Source of the DNA: Bacteroidota bacterium
Lineage (GTDB): Bacteria > Bacteroidota > Bacteroidia > Cytophagales > Spirosomataceae
Assembly: GCA_020161355.1 (NCBI GenBank)
Contig: JAIUOF010000001.1
Location: 310,001-374,000, forward strand
Reading direction: 5' to 3'
Length of the DNA stretch: 64,000 bases
Under the pieces are notes generated by a model. That model was given only the letters and a program-made list of their open reading frames with translations. It did no database searches and had not been told where the DNA came from. Below, one piece after another: positions 32,036 to 61,828 of this stretch. How positions within the stretch are numbered: position 1 is the first letter of the stretch; the number at the start of each line of letters is the position of its first letter. The translations under genes and the position numbers were made by a program.

Positions 32036-32067
32036 ATATGGATATATAAAAAAATTTGCAATAACCA

Positions 32068-33584: not shown

Positions 33585-33607
33585 AATATAATGTTTTAAT
33601 AATAAAA

Positions 33608-35604: not shown

Positions 35605-35607
35605 AGC

Positions 35608-37379: not shown

Positions 37380-37397
37380 TAATATTATTTTTTAAAT

Positions 37398-38318: not shown

Positions 38319-38321
38319 ATG

Positions 38322-40106: not shown

Positions 40107-40439
40107 GAATTAGCAAATTAAATTTACAATTGATTTGGTGTAAAATTAATACAAAAAAGGAGATTTTCACAAATGGTATTTGACCTGTAATTATGGACTT
40201 AGTGTTGAAAATTAGGTCATTTAATTTTTGAGCGTGTCAGGTGCCTGATTATTAAATTGTCTGCAACAATAAAGGAAGGAAATCACAACTGGATTCTTGA
40301 CAGCAATACTGGTAGGTTTCGCACTCATGGGTTCACTTATGGTTTTTTTAAATATCAGAATATCAAGGGTATGCGGAGGCCGGGGAAGCATACTTCAATG
40401 AAAACAAATCCTATCAGCCACTTACTTTCATTGGTGTTT
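40107..40439. other. Intergenic region upstream of the defence-like operon
   Basis: 333 bp. It should contain the promoter of the DUF262 gene on the reverse strand, but no clear TAnnTTTG-type element could be fixed. A 65-codon forward frame (40257-40454) runs into the neighbouring gene and is not supported. Confidence 0.5.
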
Positions 40440-40925: not shown

Positions 40926-41088
40926 AAAATATAATTGTTATGTTTTGGATGTTTTAATCGGGCTTTTATTCATTGACCGTTAATAACGTTTCAATTTAAG
41001 ACGCGGAAATAGAATCCACAAATATCCCGGGGTATAAATCTTGTTGGCAATGATATGCTTCTCCATGATTTTTAAAAAAGTCATGAAA

Positions 41089-41408
41089 GAGATAAGCCCA
41101 AAAACCGACGCTTGAAGCACAGCCATGTCGTATTACTTTTGTATTGCTCAAGAAAGGATAAACCTGTTAGCATTTCAAAACCCTCAGAATTAAAAAACGA
41201 ACCTAAATAGAACTGAAAAAAATCATGAGCCTGGCCACAGCCGGGTGATTTTGGAAGGATATATAGGTAAGGTTTAAAGCTAAGGAAGAAATGTAAACAG
41301 GTTTTTTTGTTGGGAAGGTCAACAGGATATCATTAGGGTTAATTGTACCAGGAAGTAATAAAAATCTGAGACCTGAAAAATAAAACCGGTATTGAGTGAA
41401 TCTGGAAA
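41089..41408. repeat. ~320-bp direct repeat, copy 1
   Basis: Runs from GAGATAAGCCCAAAAACCGA to TTGAGTGAATCTGG and matches 42697-43015 with only scattered changes. The pair flanks the secreted orphan gene at 41639-42469. Reading frames across it are broken in this copy. The rest of 40926-41638 is AT-rich without recognised features. Confidence 0.85.
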
Positions 41409-41638
41409 TGTTTTAAACTTTAATTATTCACCCCTTCTTCAGGGATAGTTGGCCTTCAAAACTTTTTACTTTCTTTTAATAACTTTTTAATCAGTGTTTA
41501 TTGGTGTATTTTACAAATGTTTCAAACCTTCCCGAAATAATTCCAAAATCAGATTTGCCATAAAATAAAATCCTAATCCTCAAAGAGCAGCATTACTAAA
41601 TAAAGGTCTAATTTTAGTAGAAATTAAATTTTTATTCT

Positions 41639-42469
41639 ATGAAAAAAGTATTTTTATTTTTCCTTTTGTTAGTTTGCTACCAGTTTGCGTTTTCTCAAGG
41701 TACCAATGAAACCGTTAATCCCAGTATTGGTGCTAATGCTTTTGCCGTTAAGGGTACTATGTCTTCAACTTCTCCAGGATCATTATCTGCTGGAGTTCGC
41801 GGTCACAACAATGGTACCGGGACATATGGTATTGGAGTATATGGCTCGCATGCAGGGCAGGGTTGGGGCGTTTATGGTACCACTGCAGGTACAGGCTCAG
41901 CAGCTATCGCTGGTTATTTTTACAATTCCGGATCATCTGGTCTGGCGTTAAGAGCAAACGGTAACGTTCGTTTTAGTGGAGGAACAATGAACGCAGGCAC
42001 AGGAAGAGTATTGGTCTCAACAGATGCAGACGGAAACGCTACCTGGGAAGATGGGGTAATTTACACAGCCTGGACTACGCTTTCTTCAGCATGGCGAGAT
42101 ACAACCGTTGATGGTTCGGTATGCAAGACTAACCATTTATTTTTAAGTTGTTTAAACTCTACTATCGTTGACCAGGGTAGTGTGCAGGGGTTTTTTAAGA
42201 TTCCTGGTGATGTTATTAATTTCCCTTTACCATATACCAGCTTTGCGGGCGGCAAAGCAAATACAATCTGGTTTCAGGTACATGCTAATAAAATACAATT
42301 ATACCGTTTTACTCATGACAACTCCGGGTCTGTAGGTACTTCTTCCATATTGCAATATAGATTTGTAATAATACCTGGTAAAAGCTCGTGTGGCTCAAAT
42401 ATTTTTATGGCGAATCCTGCTCCTAATAACCCTTGTTACTCAACAGTTCCGTGTGAAAATAAGAATTAG
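41639..42469 (+). CDS. Secreted orphan protein with Gly-rich repeats
   Basis: 276 residues with signal peptide (KVFLFFLLLVCYQFAFSQ). Residues ~35-110 are Gly/Ser/Thr-rich with short repeats (GVRGHNNGTGTYGIGVYGSH, GWGVYGTTAGTG, AGYFYNSGSSGLAL) of the beta-helical or tail-fibre type seen in many Bacteroidota surface proteins. Residues ~150-276 form a distinct beta-rich domain with six or more cysteines (VCKTNHLFLSCLNS, SSCGSN, PCYSTVPCEN) that may form disulfides. No family assigned. It stands alone between 320-bp direct repeats and is closed by a strong terminator. Confidence 0.78.
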   Translation: MKKVFLFFLLLVCYQFAFSQGTNETVNPSIGANAFAVKGTMSSTSPGSLSAGVRGHNNGTGTYGIGVYGSHAGQGWGVYGTTAGTGSAAIAGYFYNSGSSGLALRANGNVRFSGGTMNAGTGRVLVSTDADGNATWEDGVIYTAWTTLSSAWRDTTVDGSVCKTNHLFLSCLNSTIVDQGSVQGFFKIPGDVINFPLPYTSFAGGKANTIWFQVHANKIQLYRFTHDNSGSVGTSSILQYRFVIIPGKSSCGSNIFMANPAPNNPCYSTVPCENKN

Positions 42470-46128: not shown

Positions 46129-46260
46129 ACCCAAATATACCTATAATATCGGAACATATTGTCTAAAAGTAAGACAGGTTTTAATCAGATAGGAAACTCC
46201 TAAATCAGTTGAGTGATCTCACACTCCGCCCAACGTCTGACAAATCCCCTCTCATCCCGG

Positions 46261-47081: not shown

Positions 47082-50000
47082 ATGAATATGAAGCAATTAG
47101 CTTTGAAAGCTTTTTTGAAGATTACCTCTACCCGGGCAGCCGGTATTTATATATTATTGTTCGCACTCTCCATTGGTATTGCCACTTTTATAGAAAATGA
47201 TTTCGGAACCTCTTCTGCACAAAAATTAATCTTTAAAAGTACCTGGTTTGAAGTTTTATTGCTTTTATTTTCATTGTCTATACTGGCCAATATTTTCAGA
47301 TATAAGCTTATCAAGCAGAAAAAATGGGCCTCATTCCTTTTTCATGCATCGATTCTCGTCATTTTGCTGGGCTCTGCTGTCACGCGGTACACCGGATTTG
47401 AGGGGATGATGCACATCCGCGAAGGAGCTGTTTCCAATTTGTTCCTAAGTTCGGATTCTCATTTAAAATTCAGGGTAATTCAGAACAATAAAAGTTATTC
47501 TTTTACCGAACCGCTTGAAATATCTGCTATAGGAAATAATGATTTTGAAGGGAGCTATCAGATAGGTAAAAATATTATAGAGGTTAAGTTAGATAAAGTA
47601 TTGCCCAATCCGGCTGAAAAGGCTTTTCCCACCTCGGGAGGCTCACCGTTGCTAAAAGTAGTAATTGCAGGTGCCGGAGGACGCGAAGAATATTTTCTGG
47701 GTGAAGGAAGTCAGCAAATGATCAACGGTGTCAATTTCAACTTTACAAATCAGAACCTTCCAAACGCATTTAATATCAGGTTACAGAATGACTCGCTGGT
47801 ATTTATAACCGACCAAAGTGTAAACCAGAGAGTTATGGCTACACAAGAGGTAAGCGATCTGACGGCTGGAAGTGAACATCCCCTTAAACTCAGGTCGCTC
47901 TATACCGTAGGGGGTTCGAGTTTTGTTTTCGGCGATTTTATTCCTAAAGGAAATGTAAGCATTGAGTCCGGCTCAAAAAAACTAAGCAACGAAAGTCTGG
48001 TGGGCTTGATGATGACGGTTAAAGTAAATGGCAAAACTCAAACCGAATTGGTAACAGGAAGAAAAAATGACGAAGGAACACCCGTTGTATTTCAATTTGA
48101 AGACTTGAGCCTGGAGATAGCTTTTGGATCCAGAATTGAAACATTACCTTTCTCCATCGCCTGCCGTGATTTCATTCTGGAAAAATACCCCGGCACCGAG
48201 AATCCTTCTTCTTATGCCAGTGAGGTTACGCTCATTGATGAAAAAGAAAATGTAAACCGTGAGCAGCGGATATTTATGAATAATATTCTCCAATATCAGG
48301 GTTACCGGTTTTTCCAATCTTCTTTTGATCAGGATGAGCTCGGCACTTATCTGAGTGTAAATCATGACTTTTGGGGTACCTGGATATCCTATCTTGGCTA
48401 TGCATTGCTTACCCTGGGTATGATTCTGAATTTCTTTGATAAAAAAAGTCGTTTTGCTGATTTGCTGAGAAGACTCAGCAAGGGCTCTGTCCAAACAATT
48501 ATTGTCATACTCATTTCGATGACCTCCTTCGGGACTTTTGCTCAGCAAGTTACACCGGAACACGCCCGGGCATTTGGTAAACTCATGGTGCAGGATCAAA
48601 ATGGCCGGATCAAACCCATGAATACCTTTGACAATGAGATTCTGAGGAAATTGTCGCGAAAAGAAAGTCTCGATGGACAATCAGCAGATCAGATTATCCT
48701 TTCCATGATGCTGAATCCGGGTACATGGGAAAAGGTGGAGATGATTCAGATTGCTGACCATCCCCAAATCAAAGAGTTGCTCAAGACCGATAAGAGACTT
48801 TTGAGTTATAATGCTTTCTTTAATCCTGATGGGAGCTATATCCTGAGTGAGGCCGTGAAAGCAGCACAAAATATGATGCCCAAAGATCAGGGAACTTTTG
48901 AAAAAGCTCTGATAAAAATAGACGAGAAAGTCAATATCGTAAATATGGTTTTCTCAGGCAGCCTCTTCCGCTGGTTTCCACAGGAAGGAAATCCAACTGC
49001 TCCCTGGCTTACCCCTGCTGACCTGATGCACGATCATCAAAATATGCCGGTGGCTGCCACTTCGGTGAGCGGTTTGTTTTCGGCTTATGTCAACAGTGTC
49101 AATGAAGGTAACTTCAATGCTGCCGATGCCAATCTTGAGCAGATTATTAAATACCAAAAAGCCAATGGAGGCGATATTATTCCTTCTGAAACCAAACTGG
49201 GTGCTGAGATTTTCCTGAATAAACTGGATGCATTTAATCGGCTAAAGGGCTATTACGGCATTCTTTGTCTGGTGTTTACAGGATTATTCCTTTTTGTCAC
49301 CATTAAAAAATCCGGCAAAACCGAAAAATGGACCCGATGGGCTTTCTATGCCATGGTCCTGGGTTTTGTGTTTCATACTTTAGGCTTAGGGCTGCGTTGG
49401 TACATTTCGGGCAGGGCTCCATGGAGCAATGGCTATGAATCAATGATTTACATTGGCTGGACGACAGTATTGGGAGGCCTATTGATCTCCCGAAAATCTT
49501 TGGGAGGCTTATCTGCGACGGCTACGCTTGCCGCTACCATCCTTTTTGTGGCCAGTATGAGCTGGCTTGACCCCGAGATAACCCCTTTGGTACCGGTATT
49601 GAAATCTTACTGGCTCACCATTCACGTTTCGCTGGAAGCGGGCAGTTATGGCTTTCTGTTATTAGGGGCAGTGATTGGCATGTTAAACCTGGTTTTGATG
49701 ATTTTTCTGAAAGAGGAAAACAAAGCCAATATAGAAAGGACCATCAGAGAGCTGACGATCATAAGCGAAATCACCCTTACAGCAGGATTGGTGATGGTAA
49801 GTGTGGGAACTTATCTGGGTGGAGTATGGGCCAATGAGTCCTGGGGTAGATACTGGGGCTGGGATGCCAAAGAGACCTGGGCACTGGTGACGATTTTGGT
49901 TTATGCCTTCATATTACACATGAGATTGATTCCCAAAATGAGAGGAATATTCGCATTTAATTTTGCTTCTCTCTTTGGCTTTGGTACGGTGATTATGACT

Positions 50001-50156
50001 TATCTGGGGGTAAATTATTATTTGTCCGGCTTACATTCCTATGCTGCGGGCGACCCTGTTCCTATGCCGCCGGCAGTGTATTATACCGTGACTGTGTTAA
50101 GTATTTTGAGTTTACTGGCTTATTTAAAATACAGGAAATTGCTTAAATCCAAATAG
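47082..50156 (+). CDS. ccsBA: Fused ResB-CcsA cytochrome c synthase (system II)
   Basis: 1024 residues. The N-terminal ResB half has membrane helices at ~15-100, a large periplasmic domain and a helix at ~430-455 followed by a second exported region; the C-terminal ~400 residues are CcsA with six helices, WYISGRAPWSNGYES, HVSLEAGSYGFLLLGA and the WWD heme-handling motif WGRYWGWDAKETWALV. Histidines flanking the motif (SYWLTIHVSLE, FILHMRL) are candidates for heme ligands. It exports heme and ligates it to CXXCH cysteines. It heads an operon that encodes 78 CXXCH motifs, so it is probably the dedicated maturation enzyme for them. Confidence 0.94.
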   Translation: MNMKQLALKAFLKITSTRAAGIYILLFALSIGIATFIENDFGTSSAQKLIFKSTWFEVLLLLFSLSILANIFRYKLIKQKKWASFLFHASILVILLGSAVTRYTGFEGMMHIREGAVSNLFLSSDSHLKFRVIQNNKSYSFTEPLEISAIGNNDFEGSYQIGKNIIEVKLDKVLPNPAEKAFPTSGGSPLLKVVIAGAGGREEYFLGEGSQQMINGVNFNFTNQNLPNAFNIRLQNDSLVFITDQSVNQRVMATQEVSDLTAGSEHPLKLRSLYTVGGSSFVFGDFIPKGNVSIESGSKKLSNESLVGLMMTVKVNGKTQTELVTGRKNDEGTPVVFQFEDLSLEIAFGSRIETLPFSIACRDFILEKYPGTENPSSYASEVTLIDEKENVNREQRIFMNNILQYQGYRFFQSSFDQDELGTYLSVNHDFWGTWISYLGYALLTLGMILNFFDKKSRFADLLRRLSKGSVQTIIVILISMTSFGTFAQQVTPEHARAFGKLMVQDQNGRIKPMNTFDNEILRKLSRKESLDGQSADQIILSMMLNPGTWEKVEMIQIADHPQIKELLKTDKRLLSYNAFFNPDGSYILSEAVKAAQNMMPKDQGTFEKALIKIDEKVNIVNMVFSGSLFRWFPQEGNPTAPWLTPADLMHDHQNMPVAATSVSGLFSAYVNSVNEGNFNAADANLEQIIKYQKANGGDIIPSETKLGAEIFLNKLDAFNRLKGYYGILCLVFTGLFLFVTIKKSGKTEKWTRWAFYAMVLGFVFHTLGLGLRWYISGRAPWSNGYESMIYIGWTTVLGGLLISRKSLGGLSATATLAATILFVASMSWLDPEITPLVPVLKSYWLTIHVSLEAGSYGFLLLGAVIGMLNLVLMIFLKEENKANIERTIRELTIISEITLTAGLVMVSVGTYLGGVWANESWGRYWGWDAKETWALVTILVYAFILHMRLIPKMRGIFAFNFASLFGFGTVIMTYLGVNYYLSGLHSYAAGDPVPMPPAVYYTVTVLSILSLLAYLKYRKLLKSK

Positions 50157-50210
50157 AAGAAATTTTTCAAAAAAAGATTCACACCCAAAGAATAAAACCG
50201 ATACATCTGA

Positions 50211-51056
50211 ATGAATAAAATTGCTCACCGCATGTACCTAGGTACAATGGCTTTGATAGTGATAGCTGTCACGGTCTATCTGTATCTGTATGGTGAATCG
50301 TATTATCGAACCCCTTATGAAGAGAGGTTCTATCATGCTGCTCACAAGCAGCTGAAGCCCGGCGGGATTTACGGTCATGGCCTGGGCATATTGGGTACAT
50401 TACTAATTGTGATCGGGGTTTTTGGTTATCAGGCCAGAAAATACATGAAAGCCCTCTCCAATGTCTGGATTCTGAAACATTGGCTGGAATTCCACATATT
50501 TTTATGCACACTCGGTCCGGTTATGATATTGTTTCATACTTCATTCAAATTCGGCGGTCTCGTATCCATTAGCTTCTGGAGTATGGTGGCTGTGGTGGCC
50601 AGTGGGGTAGTCGGGCGTTTTATCTATCTACAAATTCCCCGTACCCGTCAGGGACGAGAACTTTCCTTAAACGAAATACAAGACCTGAAGCTTGAGCTTA
50701 GCAACCGGCTTAAGTTTAAAATAGGTTTTGATACCATCGGAAAAATCCTGACTGAGGTAAATGAATACGAAAATCAGGGTAATATTTTTACCCAATATTT
50801 CTATGACTGGAAACATAAAAATGATATTAAGGCAAGCCTGAAGCATTATGGATTGGAAAAGTCGGCCAGGTTGGAAGTAATGGAAATGGTCAATCATGAG
50901 CTGGAAATCAACCGGAAAATAAAGAGATTAAAATTAATGCAAAAGTTATTTAACTACTGGCATGTGGTGCATCTGCCCTTTGCAATAGTGATGCTGGTCA
51001 TCATGCTCATTCATGTGGGCATTACGCTGGCTTTTGGTTATAAATGGATATTCTGA
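50211..51056 (+). CDS. Membrane b-type-cytochrome-like protein, quinone-side candidate
   Basis: 281 residues. Helices at ~10-28, ~55-75, ~90-110, ~118-140 and ~250-275 with a ~90-residue cytoplasmic helical insert (SNRLKFKIGFDTIGKILTEV region). Histidines sit in or next to helices: IYGHGLGIL, LKHWLEFHIFL, MILFHTSF and, at the end, YWHVVHLPFAIVM with IHVGITL. Such spacing is suitable for one or two b hemes. No named family was assigned. It overlaps the next gene by 13 bp, which codes for a membrane-anchored FAD/Fe-S protein, so the two may form a complex that moves electrons across or out of the inner membrane. Confidence 0.75.
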   Translation: MNKIAHRMYLGTMALIVIAVTVYLYLYGESYYRTPYEERFYHAAHKQLKPGGIYGHGLGILGTLLIVIGVFGYQARKYMKALSNVWILKHWLEFHIFLCTLGPVMILFHTSFKFGGLVSISFWSMVAVVASGVVGRFIYLQIPRTRQGRELSLNEIQDLKLELSNRLKFKIGFDTIGKILTEVNEYENQGNIFTQYFYDWKHKNDIKASLKHYGLEKSARLEVMEMVNHELEINRKIKRLKLMQKLFNYWHVVHLPFAIVMLVIMLIHVGITLAFGYKWIF

Positions 51057-52384
51057 TGATGAGTTTAGAGGAAATAGCAGTATATGGAGGCGGGCTGTTG
51101 CTGAGTGCAATAGTGCTTTTTGCTTATTTGGGAATTCAGTCCAGAAAATCAAAAAAAATAAAGAAGAAAATCGAAGTGGCGATTGAAGAAGGGGTTCACG
51201 AGCCGGTTTCACTTTATCCTTATATAGACCCGGATATATGTATCGGAAGTGGTGCCTGTGTGTCGGCATGTCCCGAGCATGATATTCTGGGGATTGTGAA
51301 TGGCAGAGGAGAGCTGATCAGTGCTTCCAACTGCGTGGGTCATGGAGCTTGTTTCCATGCTTGTCCTGTAGAAGCCATTTCTCTGAAAATAGGCACTGAA
51401 AAACGCGGCGTGGATCTGCCACATGTAAGCCAGAGCTTTGAAACCAATTCCAAGGGGATTTTTATTGCTGGGGAGTTGGGAGGCATGGGGCTCATCAAAA
51501 ACAGTGTTGAGCAGGGTAAACAGGCGGTAGATAATATAAAGCCAACCATAGCAGGCAACCATGGTGCCGATTATGATTTATTAATCGTTGGAGCAGGACC
51601 TGCCGGCATTTCTGCTTCCTTACAGGCAAAAAAATACGGATTAAAAACCGTCACACTCGACCAGGATTCTGTAGGAGGTACCGTTTTTAGTTTTCCGAGA
51701 GCCAAAGTAGTGATGACCAACCCCATGGAGCTCCCGGGTTATGGCAAAGTAAAACTCTACGAGACCAGCAAGACCGAACTTCTGGATCTTTGGACGAGGG
51801 TAATTTCTGAAAACAACATCCTCATTAAAGAGCATCAGAAGGTATCTGAGGTGATACCCTCTGCCGACAATTTCATTGTGAAAACTGAGTCGGGTGAAAC
51901 CTATCATACCCACAAAGTTTTGCTGGCTATTGGTCGAAGGGGTAGCCCAAGAAAACTAAATGTAAAAGGAGAAGGCAGGGAAAAAGTAGCTTATCGGCTC
52001 CTTGAGCCGGAATTAATCAGCCAAAAGCATATTTTGGTCGTCGGTGGGGGGGACTCAGCCATTGAGAGTGCTCTTCTGCTTGCTGAAAACAATTTTGTAA
52101 CGCTTTCTTACAGAGGGGAAGTTTTTAACAGGCTAAAGCCGAAAAATACGGCTAAAATTAAGGAAGCCATTGATTCAAAGGTGATAAGGATGGAATTCAA
52201 CTCTAATGTAAATGAAATCGGGGAGTTCGAAGTAATACTGAATCGGGAAGGTAAGGAAATCATCTTGCAAAATGATCTGGTTTACATCTTTGCAGGCGGG
52301 GAACTGCCTACGCAATTTTTGAAAAACGCAGGAATAGAAATTACCAAGAGGTTTGGATATACCATGAAATCGCATCATAAGTGA
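51044..52384 (+). CDS. Membrane-anchored ferredoxin/FAD pyridine-nucleotide oxidoreductase
   Basis: 446 residues. One N-terminal helix (VYGGGLLLSAIVLFAYLGI) anchors it. A two-cluster ferredoxin domain follows: CIGSGACVSACPEHD and CVGHGACFHACPVEAI, in both of which the second cysteine of the usual CxxCxxCxxxCP is replaced (Ser and His). The rest is a thioredoxin-reductase-like FAD/NAD(P) enzyme: LLIVGAGPAGISASLQ, then LAIGRRGSPRKL, ILVVGGGDSAIESALLL and YIFAGGELPTQFLK. It lacks the CxxC redox disulfide of thioredoxin reductase. It should feed electrons from NAD(P)H towards the neighbouring b-type membrane protein and cytochromes, or work in reverse; direction is inferred. Confidence 0.87.
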   Translation: MDILMMSLEEIAVYGGGLLLSAIVLFAYLGIQSRKSKKIKKKIEVAIEEGVHEPVSLYPYIDPDICIGSGACVSACPEHDILGIVNGRGELISASNCVGHGACFHACPVEAISLKIGTEKRGVDLPHVSQSFETNSKGIFIAGELGGMGLIKNSVEQGKQAVDNIKPTIAGNHGADYDLLIVGAGPAGISASLQAKKYGLKTVTLDQDSVGGTVFSFPRAKVVMTNPMELPGYGKVKLYETSKTELLDLWTRVISENNILIKEHQKVSEVIPSADNFIVKTESGETYHTHKVLLAIGRRGSPRKLNVKGEGREKVAYRLLEPELISQKHILVVGGGDSAIESALLLAENNFVTLSYRGEVFNRLKPKNTAKIKEAIDSKVIRMEFNSNVNEIGEFEVILNREGKEIILQNDLVYIFAGGELPTQFLKNAGIEITKRFGYTMKSHHK

Positions 52385-52449
52385 TAAAAAAGGCAAGAAA
52401 TATAATCCTAAATGTTGACCAACAGCAATCCTTCACAAGGTTGTCAGGG

Positions 52450-54288
52450 ATGTTATTGCCTTTTAGATGCTTAAAAACACTTCTCTTCTTAATTTTTATA
52501 ACAAACCTGTCGCATGCCCAGCTTTCACCCGGTAAATTAACCCAATCCCACAGTAAACTGGAAGGACTGAGTAACTGTACCCAATGCCACAGTATCGGCG
52601 ACAAAATCTCCAATCAGAAATGTCTGGCTTGTCATAAAGATTTGAACGTAAGAATTTCCTCCCGAAAAGGCTTTCATGCTTCTTCAGAGGTAAGAGGAAA
52701 AGACTGTATCACCTGCCATAGTGATCACCATGGGGTAAACTTCAAAATGGTAAGAGTGGACAAGAAAACCTTCAATCATAGTCTCACAGGTTATGAATTG
52801 AAGGATGGTCATAAAACCAAACCCAAAGATTGCAATGAGTGTCATAAACCACAAAACATTGCTTCTGCTACAATCAGAGCCAGAAAGAATACATTTCAGG
52901 GTTTGAGTACGGCTTGTGCCACTTGCCATGATGATGTACATCAGGGTACCCTATCAAAAGACTGTGCCACTTGCCATGATTTTAAGGATTTCAAAAAACC
53001 GGATAATTTTAACCATAATAAAACTGACTTTGCCCTGAGGGGAGCTCACCAAAAGGTGCAGTGTAATGATTGCCATAAACAAGAAGTGAGAAACGGCAAG
53101 AAGTTTGTAAAATATAGCGGAGTAGCTTCCAATTCCTGCACTTCCTGTCATAAAGATGAGCACAACGGACATTATGGGAACCATTGCCAGAGTTGCCACA
53201 ATGACGAAAGCTTTGCCAGAATTAATAACAATCCCACTTTTAACCATAAACTTACCGGCTTTGCCCTTGAAGGCAAACATGGTAGTGTTTCCTGTAAAAA
53301 ATGTCATGATAAAACTTTTGCCGGAAGAGGGAAATTCAGAGAGTTTTTTGGCAAAAAACCTTTGGATTGCAAATTATGCCATGAAGATATCCATGAAGGG
53401 AAATTTGGCGATGACTGTAAAAAATGCCATAATCAGAATTCCTTTAAACTTAAAAATACCAAAACCCTAAGTGATTTTGATCATGACAATACAGGCTTTG
53501 TGCTGAAAGGAAAACATGAAAATACAGATTGTAAATCGTGTCATAAAAAAGCACTGACCGATCCTGTACCTCATAAGCAATGCCTAGATTGCCATACTGA
53601 TAAACATAATGGTGATTTTGCTGCCAAAAAAGCCAAATATCCAGACTGTGCCTCCTGCCATGTGGAAGATGATTTTATGCCGGCCACTTTTACCATTGAA
53701 AAGCACAATCAAAGTGATTTCAAGTTACAAGGCTCCCATGTGGCTACACCTTGTATTTCCTGTCACAAGACCGGAAAGGACTGGAAATTCAAGATACCTG
53801 AACAAAAATGCAACAATTGCCATCAGGATATCCATGAAAATGCCATTGATAAAAAATATTATCCTGAAAAGAATTGTGAAACCTGTCACACTTCCGGTTC
53901 ATGGGCCAGCATAAGCTTTGATCATAATCAGACCGATTACCCATTGGAGGGAGGGCATCAGGCTGTAAACTGTGGCAACTGTCATTTTGATAGATCAAAA
54001 GGTCTGGTAGTACAAAAAATCAAGGGTTTAGACAGAGCATGCAATAATTGTCATAAAGATGTACATGGGGGGCAATTCGCAAAAAATGGCCTAACCGACT
54101 GTGCATCATGCCATACTTTCAGAGCCTGGGATAGTATAGGTTTTGACCATGATAAAACCCGGTTCAAACTCGATGGAGAACACAAAAATGTGGATTGCTA
54201 TCAATGCCACAAGGATTTTATAAGGGGAACAGAAAATGTAAGATCATTTAAACTCGGCAAATTCAAATGCGTAGACTGTCATTTATAA
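52450..54288 (+). CDS. Multiheme cytochrome c with 23 CXXCH motifs
   Basis: 612 residues from ATG 52450, where a signal peptide begins (CLKTLLFLIFITNLSHAQ); an in-frame GTG at 52381 overlaps the upstream stop but would precede the signal with 23 hydrophilic residues. I count 23 CXXCH motifs (CTQCH, CLACH, CITCH, CNECH, CATCH and so on to CVDCH). Repeating pieces of the form FNHN-TDFALRGAHQKVQCNDCHKQ and CxxCHxDxHxG recur every ~60-80 residues; H in FNH, GAH and D-x-H-x-G can be distal ligands. Length and heme density exceed ordinary periplasmic cytochromes. It ends inside the next gene's first codons (22-bp overlap), so both cytochromes are made together. Confidence 0.92.
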   Translation: MLLPFRCLKTLLFLIFITNLSHAQLSPGKLTQSHSKLEGLSNCTQCHSIGDKISNQKCLACHKDLNVRISSRKGFHASSEVRGKDCITCHSDHHGVNFKMVRVDKKTFNHSLTGYELKDGHKTKPKDCNECHKPQNIASATIRARKNTFQGLSTACATCHDDVHQGTLSKDCATCHDFKDFKKPDNFNHNKTDFALRGAHQKVQCNDCHKQEVRNGKKFVKYSGVASNSCTSCHKDEHNGHYGNHCQSCHNDESFARINNNPTFNHKLTGFALEGKHGSVSCKKCHDKTFAGRGKFREFFGKKPLDCKLCHEDIHEGKFGDDCKKCHNQNSFKLKNTKTLSDFDHDNTGFVLKGKHENTDCKSCHKKALTDPVPHKQCLDCHTDKHNGDFAAKKAKYPDCASCHVEDDFMPATFTIEKHNQSDFKLQGSHVATPCISCHKTGKDWKFKIPEQKCNNCHQDIHENAIDKKYYPEKNCETCHTSGSWASISFDHNQTDYPLEGGHQAVNCGNCHFDRSKGLVVQKIKGLDRACNNCHKDVHGGQFAKNGLTDCASCHTFRAWDSIGFDHDKTRFKLDGEHKNVDCYQCHKDFIRGTENVRSFKLGKFKCVDCHL

Positions 54289-57200
54289 TATTGCTACTGA
54301 TGGCCTTTGCCACCAGAATCCTAGGGCAATCGCCGCATGGGAAAGGGTTCAATATGGAATGTGCTTCCTGTCATACCACTAAAAACTGGCAGATAAGTGC
54401 ATCAGACAGTAAATTTGACCATAACACTACAGATTTCAAACTTACAGGCAAGCACACGGTTGCTGATTGTAAATCATGTCATAGCAATCTTCAATTTAAA
54501 AATGCCAAATCTGATTGTGCCGCTTGTCACCAGGACGTACACCAGCAAACGGTGGGTACCAATTGTGAAAGATGTCACAGTACCAATAACTGGCTGGTGT
54601 CCAATATTACCGGTTTGCATGAAAAAACCAGTTTTCCCTTATCGGGCGTTCATGCTACTGTCGATTGTAAGTCTTGTCATAAAACCAATAACAATGTCAA
54701 TTTTGGGCCGGTAGGTCTTACTTGTGCCGAATGTCATACCAGAGACTTTAGAGCAACTACCCGACCCAATCACAGCAAGTTGGGGCTTTCCAACGACTGT
54801 GTGCAATGTCATACCGCTACACCAGAATGGAAAACCAGAACTTTTCCTGATCATGATTTAATCTATCCCCTTACCGGTGCCCATGCGAGCATTGCTCAGG
54901 ATTGCGAAAAATGTCACCCGGGAGGAAATTATGCCAATACGCCTAAAGATTGTGTGGGATGCCACAATAAAGATTTTGCAGGAACTTCCAATCCGAATCA
55001 CACCAAAACTGGCATCAGTACTGACTGTGCATCTTGTCATACCACTGCACCAGGGTGGAAACCGGCAAAATATACGGACCATGATATAAAATATCCTTTA
55101 ACAGGGGGGCATGCCTTTATTGCTAACGATTGTGCCAAATGCCATAATGGTAATTACAACCAAACACCCAATGATTGTAATGCCTGCCACAGTAAAAACT
55201 ATAATGCTACTGTAGATCCTGATCATAAGAAGCTGGGATTTTCGCAGGATTGTGCTTCCTGCCATACCACCTCACCCGGCTGGTATCCTGCATTATTTAA
55301 AGATCATGATCAGTTTTATCCGCTTACAGGAGGCCATAAAATAGTAAGTTGTAATCAATGCCACAAAGACGGTGCTTACAGGAATACACCAAATGATTGT
55401 GCGAGTTGTCACACCAACAATTATCAGGCGGCCAAAAACCCGGATCATAAAAAGCTAAACCTTTCCAATGATTGTGCTACTTGTCATACCACCAGCCCCG
55501 GATGGAGACCGGCGAAGTTTACCGAACATGATAACTATTTCCCATTAATAGGCGGTCATAAAAATGTACAGTGCAATGAGTGTCATAAAAATGGAATATA
55601 TGAGGGTACATCAAAAGAATGTAACAATTGCCATAATAAAGACTATGTAGCTTCTAAATCACCGAATCACACCCTGATGGGGCTTTCGACCGATTGTGCA
55701 TCCTGTCATACCCCGAATCCCGGATGGAGACCTTCAACTTTTGATCATAACAAGTTTTATGTGCTCGAAGGTGCTCATGCCAGTATCAATGATTGCAGCA
55801 AATGTCATGATAAAGGAGATGTTAAAAGTACCCCAACGGATTGCAACAGTTGTCATAATAAAGATTACAAAGCATCTAAAAATCCCAATCATGAACAGAT
55901 TGGTATGGGGACCGACTGTGCTTCCTGCCATAATACTACACCCGGTTGGAGACCAAGTAGCTTCAACCATGATCAATACTGGCAGTTAACCGGGGCTCAT
56001 AAAAATGTTTCGGATTGCACCAAATGCCATAATAACGGGAATGTAAAAAATACCCCTACAGATTGCAATTCCTGTCATAATGCAAGTTTCAAATCGGCCT
56101 CAAATCCCAATCATACCGATGCGGGATTTTCGATGGATTGTGCGAGTTGTCATACGACGAATCCTGGCTGGAGACCATCCAATTTTAACCATGGTCAATA
56201 TTGGCCGCTGACCGGAGCTCATGCTTCTGTAAGTTCCTGTACAAAATGCCATACATCGGGAAGCTATCAAACCACTTCGGCAGATTGTAATTCTTGTCAT
56301 GCCGCCAATTATAATGCGACTACTAATCCTAATCACAAAGTGATGGGAATGGGAACAGACTGTGCTTCCTGCCATACGACTAATCCGGATTGGCGGCCAA
56401 GTACTTTCAATCATGATCAATACTGGCAATTAACCGGGGCTCATAAAAATGTTTCGGATTGTACCAAATGTCATAATAATGGAAATGTAAAAAATACCCC
56501 TACAGATTGCAATTCCTGTCATAATGCAAGTTTCAAATCGGCCTCAAATCCCAATCATACCGATGCAGGATTCTCAACGGATTGTGCGAGTTGTCATACG
56601 ACGAATCCTGGCTGGAGACCAACCAATTTTAACCATGGTCAATACTGGCCGCTGACCGGTGCTCATGCTTCTGTAAGTTCCTGTACAAAATGCCATACAT
56701 CGGGAAGCTATCAAACCACTTCGGCAGATTGCAATTCTTGTCATACCGCCAATTATAATGCGACAACTAATCCTAATCACAAAGTGATGGGGATGGGAAC
56801 AGAATGTGCTTCCTGCCATACCACTAATCCGGGTTGGCTGCCAAGTACTTTCAATCATGATCAATACTGGCAATTAACCGGAGCCCATAAAAATGTTTCG
56901 GATTGCACCAAATGCCATAATAATGGAGACGTGAAAAATACGCCGACGGATTGTAATTCCTGTCATAACGCAAACTTTAAAGCAGCAACCAATCCGAACC
57001 ATGTTTCTGCCGGTTTCTCAACAGATTGTGCAACATGTCATACTACCAATCCAGGCTGGCGACCCAGTACTTTTAACCATAATAATTACTGGCCTTTGAC
57101 GGGAGCACATGCCAATGTGAGCAATTGCACCAGCTGTCACGTAGGCGGTAACTTCAATAATACTCCGACAGATTGCAATGCCTGCCATAATGCGAATTAC

Positions 57201-58394
57201 CAGTCAGCAGCCAGTCCCAATCACAAACAATTGGGAATGGGAACTGACTGTGCATCCTGCCATACCACCAATCCGGGTTGGAGACCAAGCACATTTAATC
57301 ATAACAGTTATTGGGCACTGACCGGGGCACATGCATCAGTGAGCAATTGTGCTTCCTGTCATACCACTGGGGATGTGAAAACTACTCCATCAGATTGTAA
57401 CTCCTGTCATAATAGTAATTATAGAAGCACATCTAATCCTAACCATACTGCAGCAGGACTTTCGACTGACTGTGCAAGTTGCCATTCTACCAATCCCGGC
57501 TGGAAACCAACAAGTTTCAGCCATAACCAGTATTGGGCTCTTACCGGGGCACATACTTCGGTGAGTTCTTGTGTGGCTTGCCATACTGGAAATGCTTATT
57601 CAACAACGAGTTCTGATTGTAACGCTTGTCATAATGCCAATTACACGGCGGCTACAAATCCCAATCATGTAAATTCTGGATTCTCAACAGATTGTGCGAG
57701 CTGCCATACTACCAATCCAAGTTGGCGGCCCTCTACTTTTAATCATAATAATTACTGGGCTTTAACCGGTGCTCACGCTTCTGTGGCCTGTACGCAATGT
57801 CATATTGGAGGAAATTACAACAACACGCCAACCGATTGTAATAGTTGTCATAATTCCAATTATAGAGCAGCCTCAAATCCCAACCATGTTAATTCAGGAT
57901 TTTCGACCGATTGTGCCAGTTGTCATACCACTAACCCGGGATGGAGACCCTCAACTTTCAATCATAATAATTTCTATCCATTGGTTGGTGCTCATGCAGG
58001 TATTGCCAACAGTTGCACCAAATGTCATGCCGGTGGGAATTTCAACAATACACCAAACACTTGTTATGGTTGTCATAGCTCTGATTATAACAATGCCTCT
58101 CCCAATCACGCGTCTTCAAAGTTTCCGACAGATTGCACAGGTTGTCATAGTCAAAATGCATGGAAACCGGCTACCTGGGATCATGACAATTCCTATTTTC
58201 CGATTTACAGTGGCGAACATAAAGGCAAATGGAGCAGTTGTACCGATTGCCATACCAATGCCAGTAACTATCAGGTATTCAGCTGTTTTAAATGTCACGG
58301 AAAATCAGAAACAGATAAGGACCATAAAGGCGTAAGAAACTATTCTTATGACAGCATTGCTTGTTTGTCTTGTCACCCCAAAGGAAAAGATTAA
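54267..58394 (+). CDS. Giant multiheme cytochrome c with 55 CXXCH motifs
   Basis: 1375 residues. Signal peptide RLSFIILLLMAFATRILGQ. I count 55 CXXCH motifs, about one per 25 residues. From about residue 150 to 1300 the protein is a chain of modules of ~70-74 residues, each with three CXXCH in fixed order (DCASCHTTNPGWRP, then C-T-K-C-H after GAHxxVS, then TPTDCNSCH) and three extra conserved histidines (F-N-H, GAH, PNH), as expected if every heme is bis-His ligated. The C-terminal ~110 residues depart from the repeat (CTGCH, CTDCH, CFKCH, CLSCH). It should be an exported electron wire. Two adjacent modules are duplicated as a 444-bp block. Its stop directly abuts the beta-barrel gene. Confidence 0.95.
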   Translation: MRRLSFIILLLMAFATRILGQSPHGKGFNMECASCHTTKNWQISASDSKFDHNTTDFKLTGKHTVADCKSCHSNLQFKNAKSDCAACHQDVHQQTVGTNCERCHSTNNWLVSNITGLHEKTSFPLSGVHATVDCKSCHKTNNNVNFGPVGLTCAECHTRDFRATTRPNHSKLGLSNDCVQCHTATPEWKTRTFPDHDLIYPLTGAHASIAQDCEKCHPGGNYANTPKDCVGCHNKDFAGTSNPNHTKTGISTDCASCHTTAPGWKPAKYTDHDIKYPLTGGHAFIANDCAKCHNGNYNQTPNDCNACHSKNYNATVDPDHKKLGFSQDCASCHTTSPGWYPALFKDHDQFYPLTGGHKIVSCNQCHKDGAYRNTPNDCASCHTNNYQAAKNPDHKKLNLSNDCATCHTTSPGWRPAKFTEHDNYFPLIGGHKNVQCNECHKNGIYEGTSKECNNCHNKDYVASKSPNHTLMGLSTDCASCHTPNPGWRPSTFDHNKFYVLEGAHASINDCSKCHDKGDVKSTPTDCNSCHNKDYKASKNPNHEQIGMGTDCASCHNTTPGWRPSSFNHDQYWQLTGAHKNVSDCTKCHNNGNVKNTPTDCNSCHNASFKSASNPNHTDAGFSMDCASCHTTNPGWRPSNFNHGQYWPLTGAHASVSSCTKCHTSGSYQTTSADCNSCHAANYNATTNPNHKVMGMGTDCASCHTTNPDWRPSTFNHDQYWQLTGAHKNVSDCTKCHNNGNVKNTPTDCNSCHNASFKSASNPNHTDAGFSTDCASCHTTNPGWRPTNFNHGQYWPLTGAHASVSSCTKCHTSGSYQTTSADCNSCHTANYNATTNPNHKVMGMGTECASCHTTNPGWLPSTFNHDQYWQLTGAHKNVSDCTKCHNNGDVKNTPTDCNSCHNANFKAATNPNHVSAGFSTDCATCHTTNPGWRPSTFNHNNYWPLTGAHANVSNCTSCHVGGNFNNTPTDCNACHNANYQSAASPNHKQLGMGTDCASCHTTNPGWRPSTFNHNSYWALTGAHASVSNCASCHTTGDVKTTPSDCNSCHNSNYRSTSNPNHTAAGLSTDCASCHSTNPGWKPTSFSHNQYWALTGAHTSVSSCVACHTGNAYSTTSSDCNACHNANYTAATNPNHVNSGFSTDCASCHTTNPSWRPSTFNHNNYWALTGAHASVACTQCHIGGNYNNTPTDCNSCHNSNYRAASNPNHVNSGFSTDCASCHTTNPGWRPSTFNHNNFYPLVGAHAGIANSCTKCHAGGNFNNTPNTCYGCHSSDYNNASPNHASSKFPTDCTGCHSQNAWKPATWDHDNSYFPIYSGEHKGKWSSCTDCHTNASNYQVFSCFKCHGKSETDKDHKGVRNYSYDSIACLSCHPKGKD
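55911..57020 (+). repeat. 444-bp coding duplication in the giant cytochrome gene
   Basis: 55911-56354 and 56355-56798 are nearly identical at DNA level (two 222-bp modules each); a third, half-length copy starts at 56799. Silent third-position changes are few, so the event is recent compared with the rest of the module chain. Confidence 0.88.
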
Positions 58395-59990
58395 ATGAAA
58401 GCATTTGCCATATACATATTGATACAATTTGGCTTTGCGGCTCAGGTTTTTTCTCAGGAAAAAAGATGGCTCGAAGGCGAAGTAACATTTATTTCGCTTC
58501 AAAATGTATATCTAAAAATCGAAAATGCCCGAAGTCTTAAAATAGGGGATACCCTTGAGATTTTGAAAAACAATAGCTGGGAAAAAGGTCTGATCGTCGA
58601 GTCCGTCTCTTCGGTTTCGGTGCTTACCATTCCTCTTTTAAAGAATACCTTCAAAATAGGAGATAAGGTCAGGTTTTTATATACAGAACAAAAACCGGAA
58701 CAAAAGAAAACCGAAAAAACCATTCAGAAAAAAGAAAATCAGGCAATAAAACCTCAAAGATTAACCGATGAAGAATATTTCAAAGATAATCTTTATGCCC
58801 GGGCCATGGTCTCGGTCAATGGGAGCATGAATCAGTCGGAAAAAGCTTACAATAGAGTCAGGACTTCATTTTCAATGGATTATAACCATATCAACGACCG
58901 GAAACTATCTTTGAATGCCTATGTGATACACGCCAAACGCTTTGGGATTGAAAATGATACCAGCAAACTTTGGGACAACCTGAAAATCTATAATCTTTCG
59001 GCCAGATATGAATTTAACCGAAATACAGAAATAAGTTTTGGGAGAAAAATAAACAACCAGGTGGCCAATATTGGTGCTATAGATGGCTTGCAATTTGAGC
59101 ATCGTCTCAGGATGTTATCCCTTGGAGCATTTGCCGGAACGCGGCCCGACTTCATGGATTACGGATTCAATAAGTCCTTATTTCAATATGGTGGTTTTGT
59201 GGGCCTGAATATGCAGAAAGGATTTGGTGCCAATGAGATAACTTTTGCAATAGCAGAGCAGAAATATAAAAATATGACTGATCGTAGGTTTGCTTATTTT
59301 CAGATAAATAACTCCATTGTTAAAAACTTAAATTTGTTTTATTCTATTGAAATGGATTTATATCAAAACATTAACAACGAAATCACTCATAATCTCGACC
59401 TCACCAGTACCTATTTTTCCCTCAGATATAAACCCTACAAAAAGCTCTATTTTTCAGCTTCTTATGATAACCGCCGCAATATTATCTATTATGAAACTTA
59501 CCGTACCTACGTCGAACAATTGCTCACGCAGGAAACCCGCCAGGGATACAGAATGACGGCCAATTACAATAATATGAAGTCATTTGGCTTAAGTCTTTCA
59601 GGCTTTTACCGATATCAGGATTTCAAAGCCGAGCCTACCAAAAACTATGTGGCCAATCTCAACATCAACCGGGTTCCGGGCGTTAAGGCTTATTTAAATC
59701 TTAACTACAACTATCTGGATACTTATTATCTGAAAGGATCTATTTGGGGAGGAAGGCTGAGCAAAGATTTTGGAAAGGGAAAATTTTATTCTGAGGTAAA
59801 CTATCGGAAAGTCAATTATGATTACGTAAATTCAGACATGAAAACCTTGCAGGATATCATTGGCCTTACCGCCAGTGTTTATACCAAAAACCAGACATCT
59901 TTGTCATTGAATTTTGAAAGTACGATCGAGCCCAATATCGCCTATAACCGGTATTTTGTTTCGCTTTCACAAAGAATCAAAAATAAGTAA
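58395..59990 (+). CDS. Outer-membrane beta-barrel protein, candidate porin partner of the cytochromes
   Basis: 531 residues, starting immediately after the cytochrome stop (TAAATG). Signal peptide (IYILIQFGFAAQVFSQ). Residues ~25-95 are a small beta domain (WLEGEVTFISLQNVYLKIEN, LKIGDTLEIL, FKIGDKVRFLY), followed by a Lys/Glu-rich linker (~95-120). From ~135 to the end, alternating amphipathic strands with terminal aromatics (SFSMDYNHINDRKLSLNAYV, YFSLRYKPYKKLYFSASYD, YFVSLSQRIKNK) predict a barrel of roughly twenty strands. No sequence family was recognised; by position and fold it could play the part of MtrB/PioB-type barrels that let a multiheme protein cross the outer membrane. Confidence 0.78.
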   Translation: MKAFAIYILIQFGFAAQVFSQEKRWLEGEVTFISLQNVYLKIENARSLKIGDTLEILKNNSWEKGLIVESVSSVSVLTIPLLKNTFKIGDKVRFLYTEQKPEQKKTEKTIQKKENQAIKPQRLTDEEYFKDNLYARAMVSVNGSMNQSEKAYNRVRTSFSMDYNHINDRKLSLNAYVIHAKRFGIENDTSKLWDNLKIYNLSARYEFNRNTEISFGRKINNQVANIGAIDGLQFEHRLRMLSLGAFAGTRPDFMDYGFNKSLFQYGGFVGLNMQKGFGANEITFAIAEQKYKNMTDRRFAYFQINNSIVKNLNLFYSIEMDLYQNINNEITHNLDLTSTYFSLRYKPYKKLYFSASYDNRRNIIYYETYRTYVEQLLTQETRQGYRMTANYNNMKSFGLSLSGFYRYQDFKAEPTKNYVANLNINRVPGVKAYLNLNYNYLDTYYLKGSIWGGRLSKDFGKGKFYSEVNYRKVNYDYVNSDMKTLQDIIGLTASVYTKNQTSLSLNFESTIEPNIAYNRYFVSLSQRIKNK

Positions 59991-60013
59991 AAGATTATAA
60001 ATTAATATAGTAA

Positions 60014-60757
60014 ATGAAAATCTCTAAAATTTTATCCTTGTTGATTATCAGTGTTTTAATTTCCTGTAAATCAAAGCCAAAAGTTATTGAGGAAGAAATG
60101 GCTAACACTGGAACCTTTGCTGCAGGGACCACGTCCATGCCTTCATCCGGTTCAAATGACAGTGAATTCCATGATGTGACCGCTATAGAAATTCTAAACG
60201 CCGAACGTTATACCTATTTAAGAGTGGTGGAGAAACTGGATACTTTCTGGATAGCTGCCACCAAATTTGATGCAAAGAAAGGAAATCAATATTTCTACAG
60301 AGGCGGGTTGCTCAAAACAGATTTTGAATCTCAGGAACATCACAGGGTTTTTGATAAGATATATCTGGTATCTGAAATAATAGATGTAGCCGCTCATCCG
60401 GGCTCAAATGGTCAAATGCAACAGGCACCGGTTTCAGTGGATACCAAAGAATTAAAAAATGTCCCTGGCACACAAAAACTAAGTGCCGTATTTGAAAATA
60501 AACAAAACTTAAATGGCAAAAAGGTAAAAGTCTCGGGCAAAGTGGTAAAAGCTAATTATGGTATTATGAATTTCAACTGGATTCACATTCAGGATGGAAG
60601 TATGAAAGGAGGCAAGCCGCTTGATCTCACCATAACCACCACTGAAAATATTCCAATGGGAGCTAATGTGGCCATCGAGGGTACTTTAATTCTAAACAAA
60701 GACTTTGGTGCGGGATACAAGTATGATCTATTAATTGAAAACGGGAAGTCTTTGTAG
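60014..60757 (+). CDS. Lipoprotein with OB-fold-like domain, unknown function
   Basis: 247 residues. Lipoprotein signal (ILSLLIISVLISC, cysteine at 18). Residues ~50-125 (HDVTAIEILNAERYTYLRVV, DTFWIAATKFDAKKGNQYFY) and ~150-245 (LNGKKVKVSGKVVKANYGIM, NFNWIHIQDGS, NVAIEGTLILN) are two related beta-barrel-like units of the OB-fold type. Similar small OB-fold or GW-type exported proteins accompany cytochrome nitrite reductase and sulfate-reducer cytochrome genes, a recollection, not a search. It follows the barrel gene by 23 bp and probably belongs to the same machine. Confidence 0.75.
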   Translation: MKISKILSLLIISVLISCKSKPKVIEEEMANTGTFAAGTTSMPSSGSNDSEFHDVTAIEILNAERYTYLRVVEKLDTFWIAATKFDAKKGNQYFYRGGLLKTDFESQEHHRVFDKIYLVSEIIDVAAHPGSNGQMQQAPVSVDTKELKNVPGTQKLSAVFENKQNLNGKKVKVSGKVVKANYGIMNFNWIHIQDGSMKGGKPLDLTITTTENIPMGANVAIEGTLILNKDFGAGYKYDLLIENGKSL

Positions 60758-60826
60758 GGTTAACATCCTGTTAACTATTTGAAGGATTGAAAAGGTATAT
60801 TTTTGTACTGAAATTAATTATAAATA

Positions 60827-61231
60827 GTGTTAAAAAGGGCTGGAATATCATTTATGGTCGTAATCTTTTTGCTGGAAAGTCTTATTCCAGGCAATAAAGG
60901 CATAGCTGAGATTCCCAAACTAGGCTCTACGTATATTCATTTTGCTACTTGCCATAAATCTGGTGAGAGTCTTTTAAGTTTATTCTGGTTGCATTTTTCC
61001 AAAAGCTCGGGTCATAAGCAAAGACCGGAGCATCAGAATTTGCCTTCTTTCGATACTGGCAGTACATATTATATTGCTCCCCTGGTAAAGTATTATGTGA
61101 AATTTGATTCTATAATATTATCGGGAAAAAAATATATTCGAAACTACCGTTTTCTTGACAACTACTTTTTTGTGTTTTTCCGAAAAATGATTCAGCCTCC
61201 TGCATTTCGTTTTGATGTTTTTTATGCTTAA
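60827..61231 (+). CDS. Small exported or membrane protein, unknown function
   Basis: 134 residues from GTG 60827; ATG 60854 is an alternative but would shorten the hydrophobic N-terminus (AGISFMVVIFLLESLIPG). A signal-like N-terminus is followed by AEIPKLGSTYIHFATCHKSG and FWLHFSKSSGHKQRPEHQNL, which resembles small Bacteroidota proteins with LPxLxxHYxxH and GHK-x-PEHQNLP motifs. Several histidines suggest metal binding. The single cysteine in ATCHKSG is not a CXXCH heme site. Confidence 0.6.
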   Translation: MLKRAGISFMVVIFLLESLIPGNKGIAEIPKLGSTYIHFATCHKSGESLLSLFWLHFSKSSGHKQRPEHQNLPSFDTGSTYYIAPLVKYYVKFDSIILSGKKYIRNYRFLDNYFFVFFRKMIQPPAFRFDVFYA

Positions 61232-61260
61232 TATTTTTTATAACTAAAAACATTTTCAAA

Positions 61261-61773
61261 ATGAACGGAGCACATTTTCATTTGGTGGTTAACCACCTCC
61301 CAATCATATTCCCTTTGGTGGGACTTATTATTCTAATTATCGCATATTTGTTTAAATCAACAGATATCAAATATTCAGCTTATCTCGTATTTGTATTAGG
61401 AGCAATTGTGACCATTCCTGCATTTGTGTCGGGAGAAGGGGCTGAAGCAATCACAGAGAAACTGCCCGGGGTTACGGATGCTTTAATCCATAATCATGAA
61501 GAAATGGCAGAAAAATTCGCCATTATTTCTTACGCATTGGGCTTAATTTCGCTTGCAGGTATTGTTTTACTGAAAATCAGAAATAAATTCGAAAAGATAC
61601 TTTCCATTATTATCCTTTTGACTGCGGGAATTCTTTTGATTTTTGCAAAACAAACGGGTACAACAGGTGGGGAAATTCGTCATACTGAAATAAGGGCAAC
61701 TTCTTCCGGCTCAAATTCAGGTGTTGATAATACCACCGAAGAACATGAAAAGGAACGCGAAGAAAAAGATTAA
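61261..61773 (+). CDS. Small four-helix membrane protein (DUF2231-like)
   Basis: 170 residues. Four membrane helices: MNGAHFHLVVNHLPIIFPLV, SAYLVFVLGAIVTIPAFVSG, KFAIISYALGLISLAGIVL and ILSIIILLTAGILLIFA. Histidines H5, H7 and H12 lie in the first helix and HNHEE before the third, so heme or metal binding is conceivable. The tail is charged (EEHEKEREEKD). It is the last gene of the run; the strong terminator starts 24 bp later. Confidence 0.72.
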   Translation: MNGAHFHLVVNHLPIIFPLVGLIILIIAYLFKSTDIKYSAYLVFVLGAIVTIPAFVSGEGAEAITEKLPGVTDALIHNHEEMAEKFAIISYALGLISLAGIVLLKIRNKFEKILSIIILLTAGILLIFAKQTGTTGGEIRHTEIRATSSGSNSGVDNTTEEHEKEREEKD

Positions 61774-61796
61774 AATAGTATAGTTTTATATTTTAA

Positions 61797-61828
61797 AATC
61801 CGGTTTGATTCAGACCGGATTTTTTTTG
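61797..61828 (+). terminator. Rho-independent terminator of the cytochrome operon
   Basis: AATCCGGT (61797-61804) and ACCGGATT (61814-61821) form a perfect stem, followed by TTTTTTTG. It is the only strong terminator found after 47082 on the forward strand and may also serve kbl from the other side. Confidence 0.9.

Follow-up and report, generated by a model that had tools for sequence, protein, structure and literature searches.

Extracellular electron transfer has been studied in a few model lineages. One of the described systems is PCC3, a putative porin-cytochrome conduit proposed from Pseudomonadota (He et al. 2017, PMC5566968). In that description, its membrane protein comprises about 300 amino acids and five helices, with an SGXXG motif on the fourth helix and WX3HX13H motifs on the third and fifth. 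A locus comparable to PCC3 was analyzed in a stretch of 64,000 nucleotides from a Bacteroidota bacterium of the Spirosomataceae (assembly GCA_020161355.1, contig JAIUOF010000001.1, positions 310,001 to 374,000; hereafter the window, whose own numbering is used throughout). Seven forward-strand genes at 47082-60757 encode, in this order, a CcsBA-type cytochrome c synthase, a membrane protein, a flavin adenine dinucleotide (FAD)/iron-sulfur (Fe-S) enzyme, two multiheme cytochromes (MHC1 and MHC2), a predicted outer-membrane beta-barrel and a lipoprotein. Judged from sequence, their products probably form a PCC3-type electron conduit across the cell envelope, which would be fed by NAD(P)H and would run outward.

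The first-pass annotation knew no named system with this combination of genes. PCC3 does match it, namely in heme numbers, membrane-protein motifs and residue-to-heme ratio. The five segments, the SGXXG motif and both WX3HX13H motifs are all found in the membrane protein of the window. The periplasmic cytochrome of PCC3 has about 21 heme sites; MHC1, predicted to be periplasmic, has 23, and its relatives have 20 or 23. A larger cytochrome of variable size occurs in both cases, with 55 sites in MHC2 and 10-82 in its relatives (location predicted), and the porin-type gene of PCC3 has a possible counterpart in the predicted barrel gene. Also shared are repeats and a low residue-to-heme ratio, as the two cytochromes of the window are built of modules and have 25.0 and 27.6 residues per site. 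The unit differs from PCC3 in its occurrence in Bacteroidota, in a conserved FAD/Fe-S enzyme that is absent from PCC3 as far as the published accounts were available, and in two additions, a lipoprotein of the GW type that is often present and a CcsBA that is restricted to some lineages. Moreover, the cytochromes reported in Gallionellaceae have 10-18, 26, 28, 29, 33 or 35 sites (PMC10734462), whereas the sizes observed here follow a 3n+1 series. Membership in PCC3 is proposed at the motif level only. PCC4 (He et al. 2017) shares the motif signature of the membrane protein, a porin and nearby redox genes, but is described with three cytochromes of 4, 5 and 10 sites and no extracellular one, whereas the window encodes two, with 23 and 55 sites. 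MtrCAB, MtoAB and PioAB follow the same general plan of periplasmic cytochrome, barrel and outer cytochrome, but the window barrel is without a Pfam or NCBIfam match. An identity of MHC1 with MtrA-type decaheme cytochromes was rejected (36.6 bits compared to the cut-off of 192.2 of the model for DmsE-type decahemes).

Two sets of related loci were collected by means of the FAD/Fe-S enzyme, so that conduits without this enzyme would be missed. The first set contained the best 80 of at least 352 relatives among at least 589 pattern matches in named genomes. To counter best-hit bias, the second was based on 395 genomes drawn across the phylum (E <= 1e-80); the enzyme was detected in 38 of them, including the window's own genome, and the loci of the other 37 were analyzed. 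The 80 best-hit loci show the gene order membrane protein, FAD/Fe-S enzyme, MHC1, MHC2, barrel and often lipoprotein, with the membrane protein in 79, MHC1 in 79 and MHC2 in 76. Both cytochromes were found in 36/37 loci of the second set, the exception (L119) beginning at a contig end, and the membrane protein in 35/37, with no match in L104. Two gene orders occur: the FAD enzyme gene follows the membrane-protein gene in 21 loci (L104 included) and the barrel gene in 15 loci. A barrel was recognized in 47/80 and 26/37 loci and a lipoprotein in 32/80 and 1/37, counts that are incomplete partly because loci end and scoring relied on window sequences only. As read from these loci, the conserved core is composed of the membrane protein, the FAD/Fe-S enzyme, MHC1, MHC2 and the barrel, often with the lipoprotein, and CcsBA is attached in some lineages only.

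The same seven genes in the same order are present on the 100-kb plasmid pEMTOL02 of Emticicia oligotrophica (L133, NC_018749.1). There, the cytochromes have 23 and 40 sites, the lipoprotein gene is annotated as GW domain protein, and the block ends after this gene, followed by a small open reading frame (ORF) and a ParA gene. The plasmid block adjoins further redox genes (Rieske-type protein, YceI protein, barrels). In the plasmid search, a full-length match to the FAD enzyme, and any match to the membrane protein or MHC1, was obtained on pEMTOL02 only. The plasmid is classified as non-mobilizable in PLSDB, which speaks against easy transfer of the block. Among 7999 scored candidates each, the protein database held at least 7338 homologues of the membrane protein and at least 7999 of the FAD enzyme. 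Organisms named among the 120 matches listed per protein are Bacteroidota, Saprospiraceae and similar, and those listed for the FAD enzyme also include Ignavibacteriaceae and Melioribacteraceae. One further neighbor recurs, a family that appears TPR-like by eye and is present in 16 loci, often 1 kb before the FAD gene; other neighbors were found in no more than 6 loci. Within the second gene order (L117-L132), the TPR-like protein is likewise often encoded about 1 kb ahead of the FAD gene. Bacteroidota cytochromes with over 100 heme motifs have been described and a role in extracellular electron transfer suggested (PMC11495043), Cyc2 has been reported from the phylum (PMC9671151, PMC9769843), and cytochromes with at least 10 motifs are also covered in PMC9671151. 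The present cluster is not mentioned in the available parts of PMC9671151 or PMC9769843, and no account of it in Bacteroidota was found in a literature search that covered few subscription papers.

The membrane-protein gene (50211..51056) encodes 281 amino acids with five hydrophobic segments and the motifs at residues 91-109, 131-135 and 250-268. H95, H109, H254, H268 and SGXXG are invariant in 26 aligned sequences. Both WX3HX13H motifs are present in 57/80 and 27/35 family members of the two sets, and two HX13H pairs are kept in 19/23 and 7/8 of the remaining ones. On the basis of these features, the protein is predicted to be a transmembrane carrier of two b hemes. Its gene overlaps that of the FAD/Fe-S enzyme (51044..52384, 446 amino acids), which harbors a pyridine-nucleotide oxidoreductase domain (Pyr_redox) and a ferredoxin domain (Fer4). 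The hydrophobic N-terminal anchor of the enzyme is followed by basic residues, which suggests that its body is probably cytoplasmic. The Fe-S domain (51215..51388) reads CX5CX3CP and then CX2HX2CX3CP; compared to CXXCXXCXXXC, the second Cys is missing in both motifs, each being one Cys short. In the second motif a His replaces this Cys in 118/118 sequences (81/81 with the window included, and 37/37). The corresponding position of the first motif is occupied by Ser, Thr or Gly in 80/81 sequences and in 21/21 closer members of the second set, and by Cys in 14/16 more distant members. In these alignments, the His alteration of the second cluster is a constant feature, in contrast to the change in the first. 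All six Cys of the enzyme sit in the Fe-S motifs. With no Cys elsewhere, the protein is unlikely to be a YpdA-type disulfide reductase, and identity with YpdA or thioredoxin reductase was rejected (TIGR04018 153.7 compared to a cut-off of 339.9; TIGR01292 78.1 compared to 343.45).

The FAD and dinucleotide domains and the cytoplasmic placement point to NAD(P)H as the inferred donor, and export is favored because an enzyme of the NAD(P)H type is conserved. A chain that runs inward, with Fe(II) or some other external donor supplying the quinone pool or NAD(P)+, appears quite unlikely. PCC3 was proposed from iron oxidizers and, in the description as far as available, modelled in this direction. 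Cytochrome chains are also able to run both ways. However, the conserved FAD/Fe-S enzyme of cytoplasmic type fits NAD(P)H oxidation better, because the reduction of NAD(P)+ by electrons from Fe(II) is steeply uphill. Alternatively, menaquinol might feed the membrane protein, as in the PCC3 model of He et al., and the FAD/Fe-S enzyme might have another task. The available descriptions of PCC3 from Pseudomonadota contain no such enzyme, and in the second gene order its gene sits after the barrel gene. Against this stand the overlap of its gene with that of the membrane protein in the window and its presence in both gene orders, although every locus had been selected by this enzyme. A quinol-fed outlet is considered unlikely, and feeding by NAD(P)H is the preferred reading.

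MHC1 (52381..54288, 635 amino acids) and MHC2 (54267..58394, 1375 amino acids) contain 23 and 55 CXXCH motifs, as first counted, compared to averages of 0.3 and 0.7 in shuffled versions of the same proteins (n = 200). Three-heme modules are found in both. MHC1, the predicted periplasmic cytochrome, is of fixed length: among 112 complete ORFs, 62 have 20 sites and 44 have 23, the remaining six being short pieces. Its profile weakly matched the sequences of two solved chains, 3ov0 (E 2.6e-11) and 6r2q (E 6e-4), presumably a Geobacter dodecaheme protein and the MtrA of an Mtr complex, respectively. The former, its best match, resembles MHC1 as a chain of three-heme units but differs in having 12 hemes. 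MHC2, the predicted outer cytochrome wire, showed no match to solved structures at E 0.001. Its chain comprises 18 modules, in most cases 74 residues long, followed by a single final site; every module holds three CXXCH and precisely three additional His. In total, the protein has 110 Cys, and its 55 sites are accompanied by 55 additional His, of which one belongs to the leader; a distal His could thus be available for every heme. Among 92 complete MHC2 with at least 10 sites, 83 have exactly twice as many Cys as sites. In 91 of the 92, the additional His from the first site onward number between two fewer and eight more than the sites.

The size of MHC2 mostly follows a rule: of 95 MHC2-type ORFs that are complete within the 117 loci, 85 contain 3n+1 sites, a count over relatives that are not independent. 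These 85 come in 23 sizes from 10 to 82 sites; whatever the tree, 22 or more changes are required, and within this group every one of them is a multiple of three. The exceptions comprise one protein with a CXXC without His (L048); four with CX3CH or CX4CH sites, in which the rule is restored if these are counted (L068, L072, L089, L124); three nine-site proteins adjoining a larger MHC2 of 25, 34 and 28 sites (L130-L132); and two that end early and are followed by another MHC2-type ORF reaching the locus end (L015, L108). Another 28 MHC2-type ORFs, interrupted where their loci end, were left out of the count; taken alone, these depart from the rule (in the first set, the three classes hold 8, 8 and 7 of 23), as expected for truncated genes. 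Within MHC2 of the window, a tandem array at 55898..57302 has a period of 444 bp in 3.2 copies, each period corresponding to two modules or six hemes, which points to recent growth by duplication. MHC2 probably gains and loses whole three-heme modules, and such changes would keep its heme register. The heme number of the larger cytochrome also varies among Burkholderiales with similar porins (PMC7399161). OmcS has a helical rise of 48 Å with six hemes per subunit (PMC6584659); extrapolated to this spacing, the 55 hemes of MHC2 would span about 44 nm. The free variation of MHC2 size would also suit a charge store, in which both cytochromes are periplasmic and act as an electron capacitor without an outside partner, and capacitor roles have been suggested for such cytochromes (PMC10734462, PMC11495043). 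This appears improbable, since a barrel-like gene is conserved after MHC2, being recognized in the majority of loci in both sets and with several other loci ending before it.

The predicted barrel (58395..59990, 531 amino acids) carries an N-terminal soluble domain, and a C-terminal Phe is present in 45/61 aligned family members. The lipoprotein (60014..60757, 247 amino acids) has a lipobox by eye and a GW-type domain barely above the Pfam cut-off (PF13457, 22.6 bits compared to 21). Several observations weigh against a trans-envelope conduit. A strand scan of the barrel yielded 20 candidate strands, not clearly above the 16.5 ± 2.0 of shuffled sequences, and the protein matched no Pfam or NCBIfam family and no solved structure better than E 0.19. 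The start of MHC2 is plain and signal-peptide-like, and because no lipobox or known surface signal was seen by eye, its surface position is a guess. In addition, the cluster is patchy, with the conduit enzyme in 4/10 genomes of the window's genus and in 5/59 near relatives, and other respiratory genes are also present in conduit hosts.

The first-pass annotation had described a single unit of nine genes at 47082-61773 with spacings of at most about 70 bp and a strong terminator at its end. All nine forward-strand ORFs are located as claimed, with distances of +54, -13, -4, -22, 0, +23, +69 and +29 bp (overlaps negative), the widest gap being +69 bp. The search for this gene order across Bacteroidota recovered the core in both sets but not a general CcsBA nor the last two genes, an ORF with a GTG start (60827-61231) and a gene for a four-segment, DUF2231-like membrane protein (61261-61773). 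These two recur in 0/117 related loci (80 + 37), and the nine-gene unit was therefore rejected. The related loci point to a seven-gene unit at 47082-60757, and the last two genes possibly form a separate one. The DUF2231 match is under its Pfam cut-off, and the 60827 ORF, like the membrane protein and the barrel, was without any Pfam match. The putative terminator stands as a 13-pair stem followed by T at 61795-61823, the longest stem listed, but terminator-like sites in the region are not above shuffled sequence (15 compared to 14.5). A Bacteroidota promoter pattern, TTTG-N17-23-TANNTTTG, matched 8 times in the window (4.7 by chance), in no case near the block, and a scan for sigma-70-like promoters gave 48 sites compared to 43.3 in shuffles.

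CcsBA (47082..50156, 1024 amino acids), a System II cytochrome c synthase, is a ResB-CcsA fusion as first described, with the ResB and Cytochrom_C_asm domains in one protein (PF05140 73.5 bits, cut-off 24.6; PF01578 122.4 bits, cut-off 29.9); TIGR03144 CcsB gave 177.2, just under its cut-off of 187.6. The notion that the conduit carries its own synthase holds in the window's lineage, by co-occurrence and tree grouping, but is not general across the phylum. In the window's genus, CcsBA (E <= 1e-60) was found in the same four genomes as the conduit enzyme and in 0/6 others, one of which is 77% complete, a sample too small to tell co-transfer apart from shared descent. The genus is probably that of the Lacihabitans strains, as matches in three of its ten genomes have coordinates identical to those in genomes of the Lacihabitans loci. 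All ten possess System I (CcmE plus CcmF- and CcmC-sized proteins). Across the phylum, CcsBA was detected in 55/395 genomes and CcmE in 253/395, with both in three (G000, G273, G290), two of which have the conduit enzyme; CcmE is present in 37/38 conduit genomes. Conduit loci include CcsBA in 1/37 cases drawn across the phylum and in 22/80 best-hit loci, two of the latter with a CcsBA of another clade. CcsBA was thus rejected as a core part; by its distribution, linked CcsBA accompanies the conduit in certain lineages.

A tree built from 36 CcsBA rows of at least 829 amino acids (LG+G4; support as bootstrap/SH-aLRT) contains one 100/100 branch that separates 25 of them, namely 24 conduit-linked ones and the second copy of the window genome. 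Three pairs of rows hold the same gene twice (L096/L141, L150/L153, L151/L152). Situated roughly 0.6 kb past locus L027, L140 was treated as linked; L075, like three partial matches, fell short of the required length and was left out. A strict linkage rule is contradicted by G124 and G236, which have a conduit and no CcsBA match, by two Labilibaculum loci with an outside-group CcsBA about 2 kb upstream, and by the second copy of the window genome, which is 75% identical to the window copy, groups with the conduit CcsBA and lies near other multiheme genes. This second copy, at locus L093 (G000:C11:115000-134000), is located near a 636-aa ORF with nine CXXCH and a cytochrome-b-like part and a 491-aa ORF with eight CXXCH. 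The Labilibaculum loci and the second copy would also suit a general System II enzyme that merely adjoins the conduit, as would the lack of a linked CcsBA in most conduits and the six Emticicia, Lacihabitans and Cytophagaceae genomes in which the linked copy is the only one found. Such a general role is nevertheless somewhat unlikely, given that System I is present in all ten genus genomes, that no match to CcsBA was obtained in the six lacking the conduit enzyme, and that G134, G404 and G405 hold a linked CcsBA inside the conduit group and another outside it. Wolinella NrfI and CcsA1 are CcsBA isoenzymes that are likewise tied to particular cytochromes; as described (PMC12285233), they serve CXXCK or CX15CH, whereas every site of the window is CXXCH and System I is additionally present in the host. 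In E. coli, recombinant Helicobacter CcsBA is enough to mature cytochrome c (PMC6299221), and thus one gene could carry the function. Retention of CcsBA for throughput, with 78 hemes to attach, is a guess.

In the preferred reading, the NAD(P)H-type FAD/Fe-S enzyme would feed the two-heme-b membrane protein, from which electrons would pass to the 23-site periplasmic MHC1, the predicted barrel and the 55-site MHC2 wire. The path would lead from NAD(P)H over FAD, Fe-S, inner heme b, outer heme b, MHC1, barrel and MHC2 to an outside acceptor, and the hemes of both cytochromes would be attached by CcsBA. The conduit would serve as an electron outlet when oxygen is short. The earlier proposal of a trans-envelope conduit fits this anatomy and the conserved gene order. 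That electrons would run outward and through the barrel, that MHC2 would lie at the surface, that the chain would conduct and that CcsBA would serve these cytochromes is inferred. More tentatively, the locus may represent a transferable export cassette that brings its own heme-ligase lineage into hosts with another maturation system, combines it with an adjustable single-chain wire of 10 to at least 82 hemes built by three-heme modules, and feeds NAD(P)H electrons through a His-altered Fe-S enzyme.

Elsewhere in the window, the region 32001-42000 is low in G+C (30-34%, the rest mostly 36-47%), and a reverse-strand gene at 43627-46134 reads, by eye, like a cation-transporting P-type ATPase. Outside the window, a gene run at L094 (G000:C8:218000-230000) contains a multiheme cytochrome and large Fe-S-type and membrane subunits and, judged by eye, may represent alternative complex III.

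Since the enzyme occurs in 38/395 genomes and the cytochromes in 36 of the other 37 loci, Bacteroidota may commonly possess outlets of this kind. The 3n+1 rule provides a natural length series, from 10 to 82 sites, for relating wire length to electron flow. The link to CcsBA raises the question of why a System I host keeps a System II synthase for plain CXXCH sites. With the block on its plasmid, Emticicia oligotrophica DSM 17448 offers a cultured organism in which these points may be tested.

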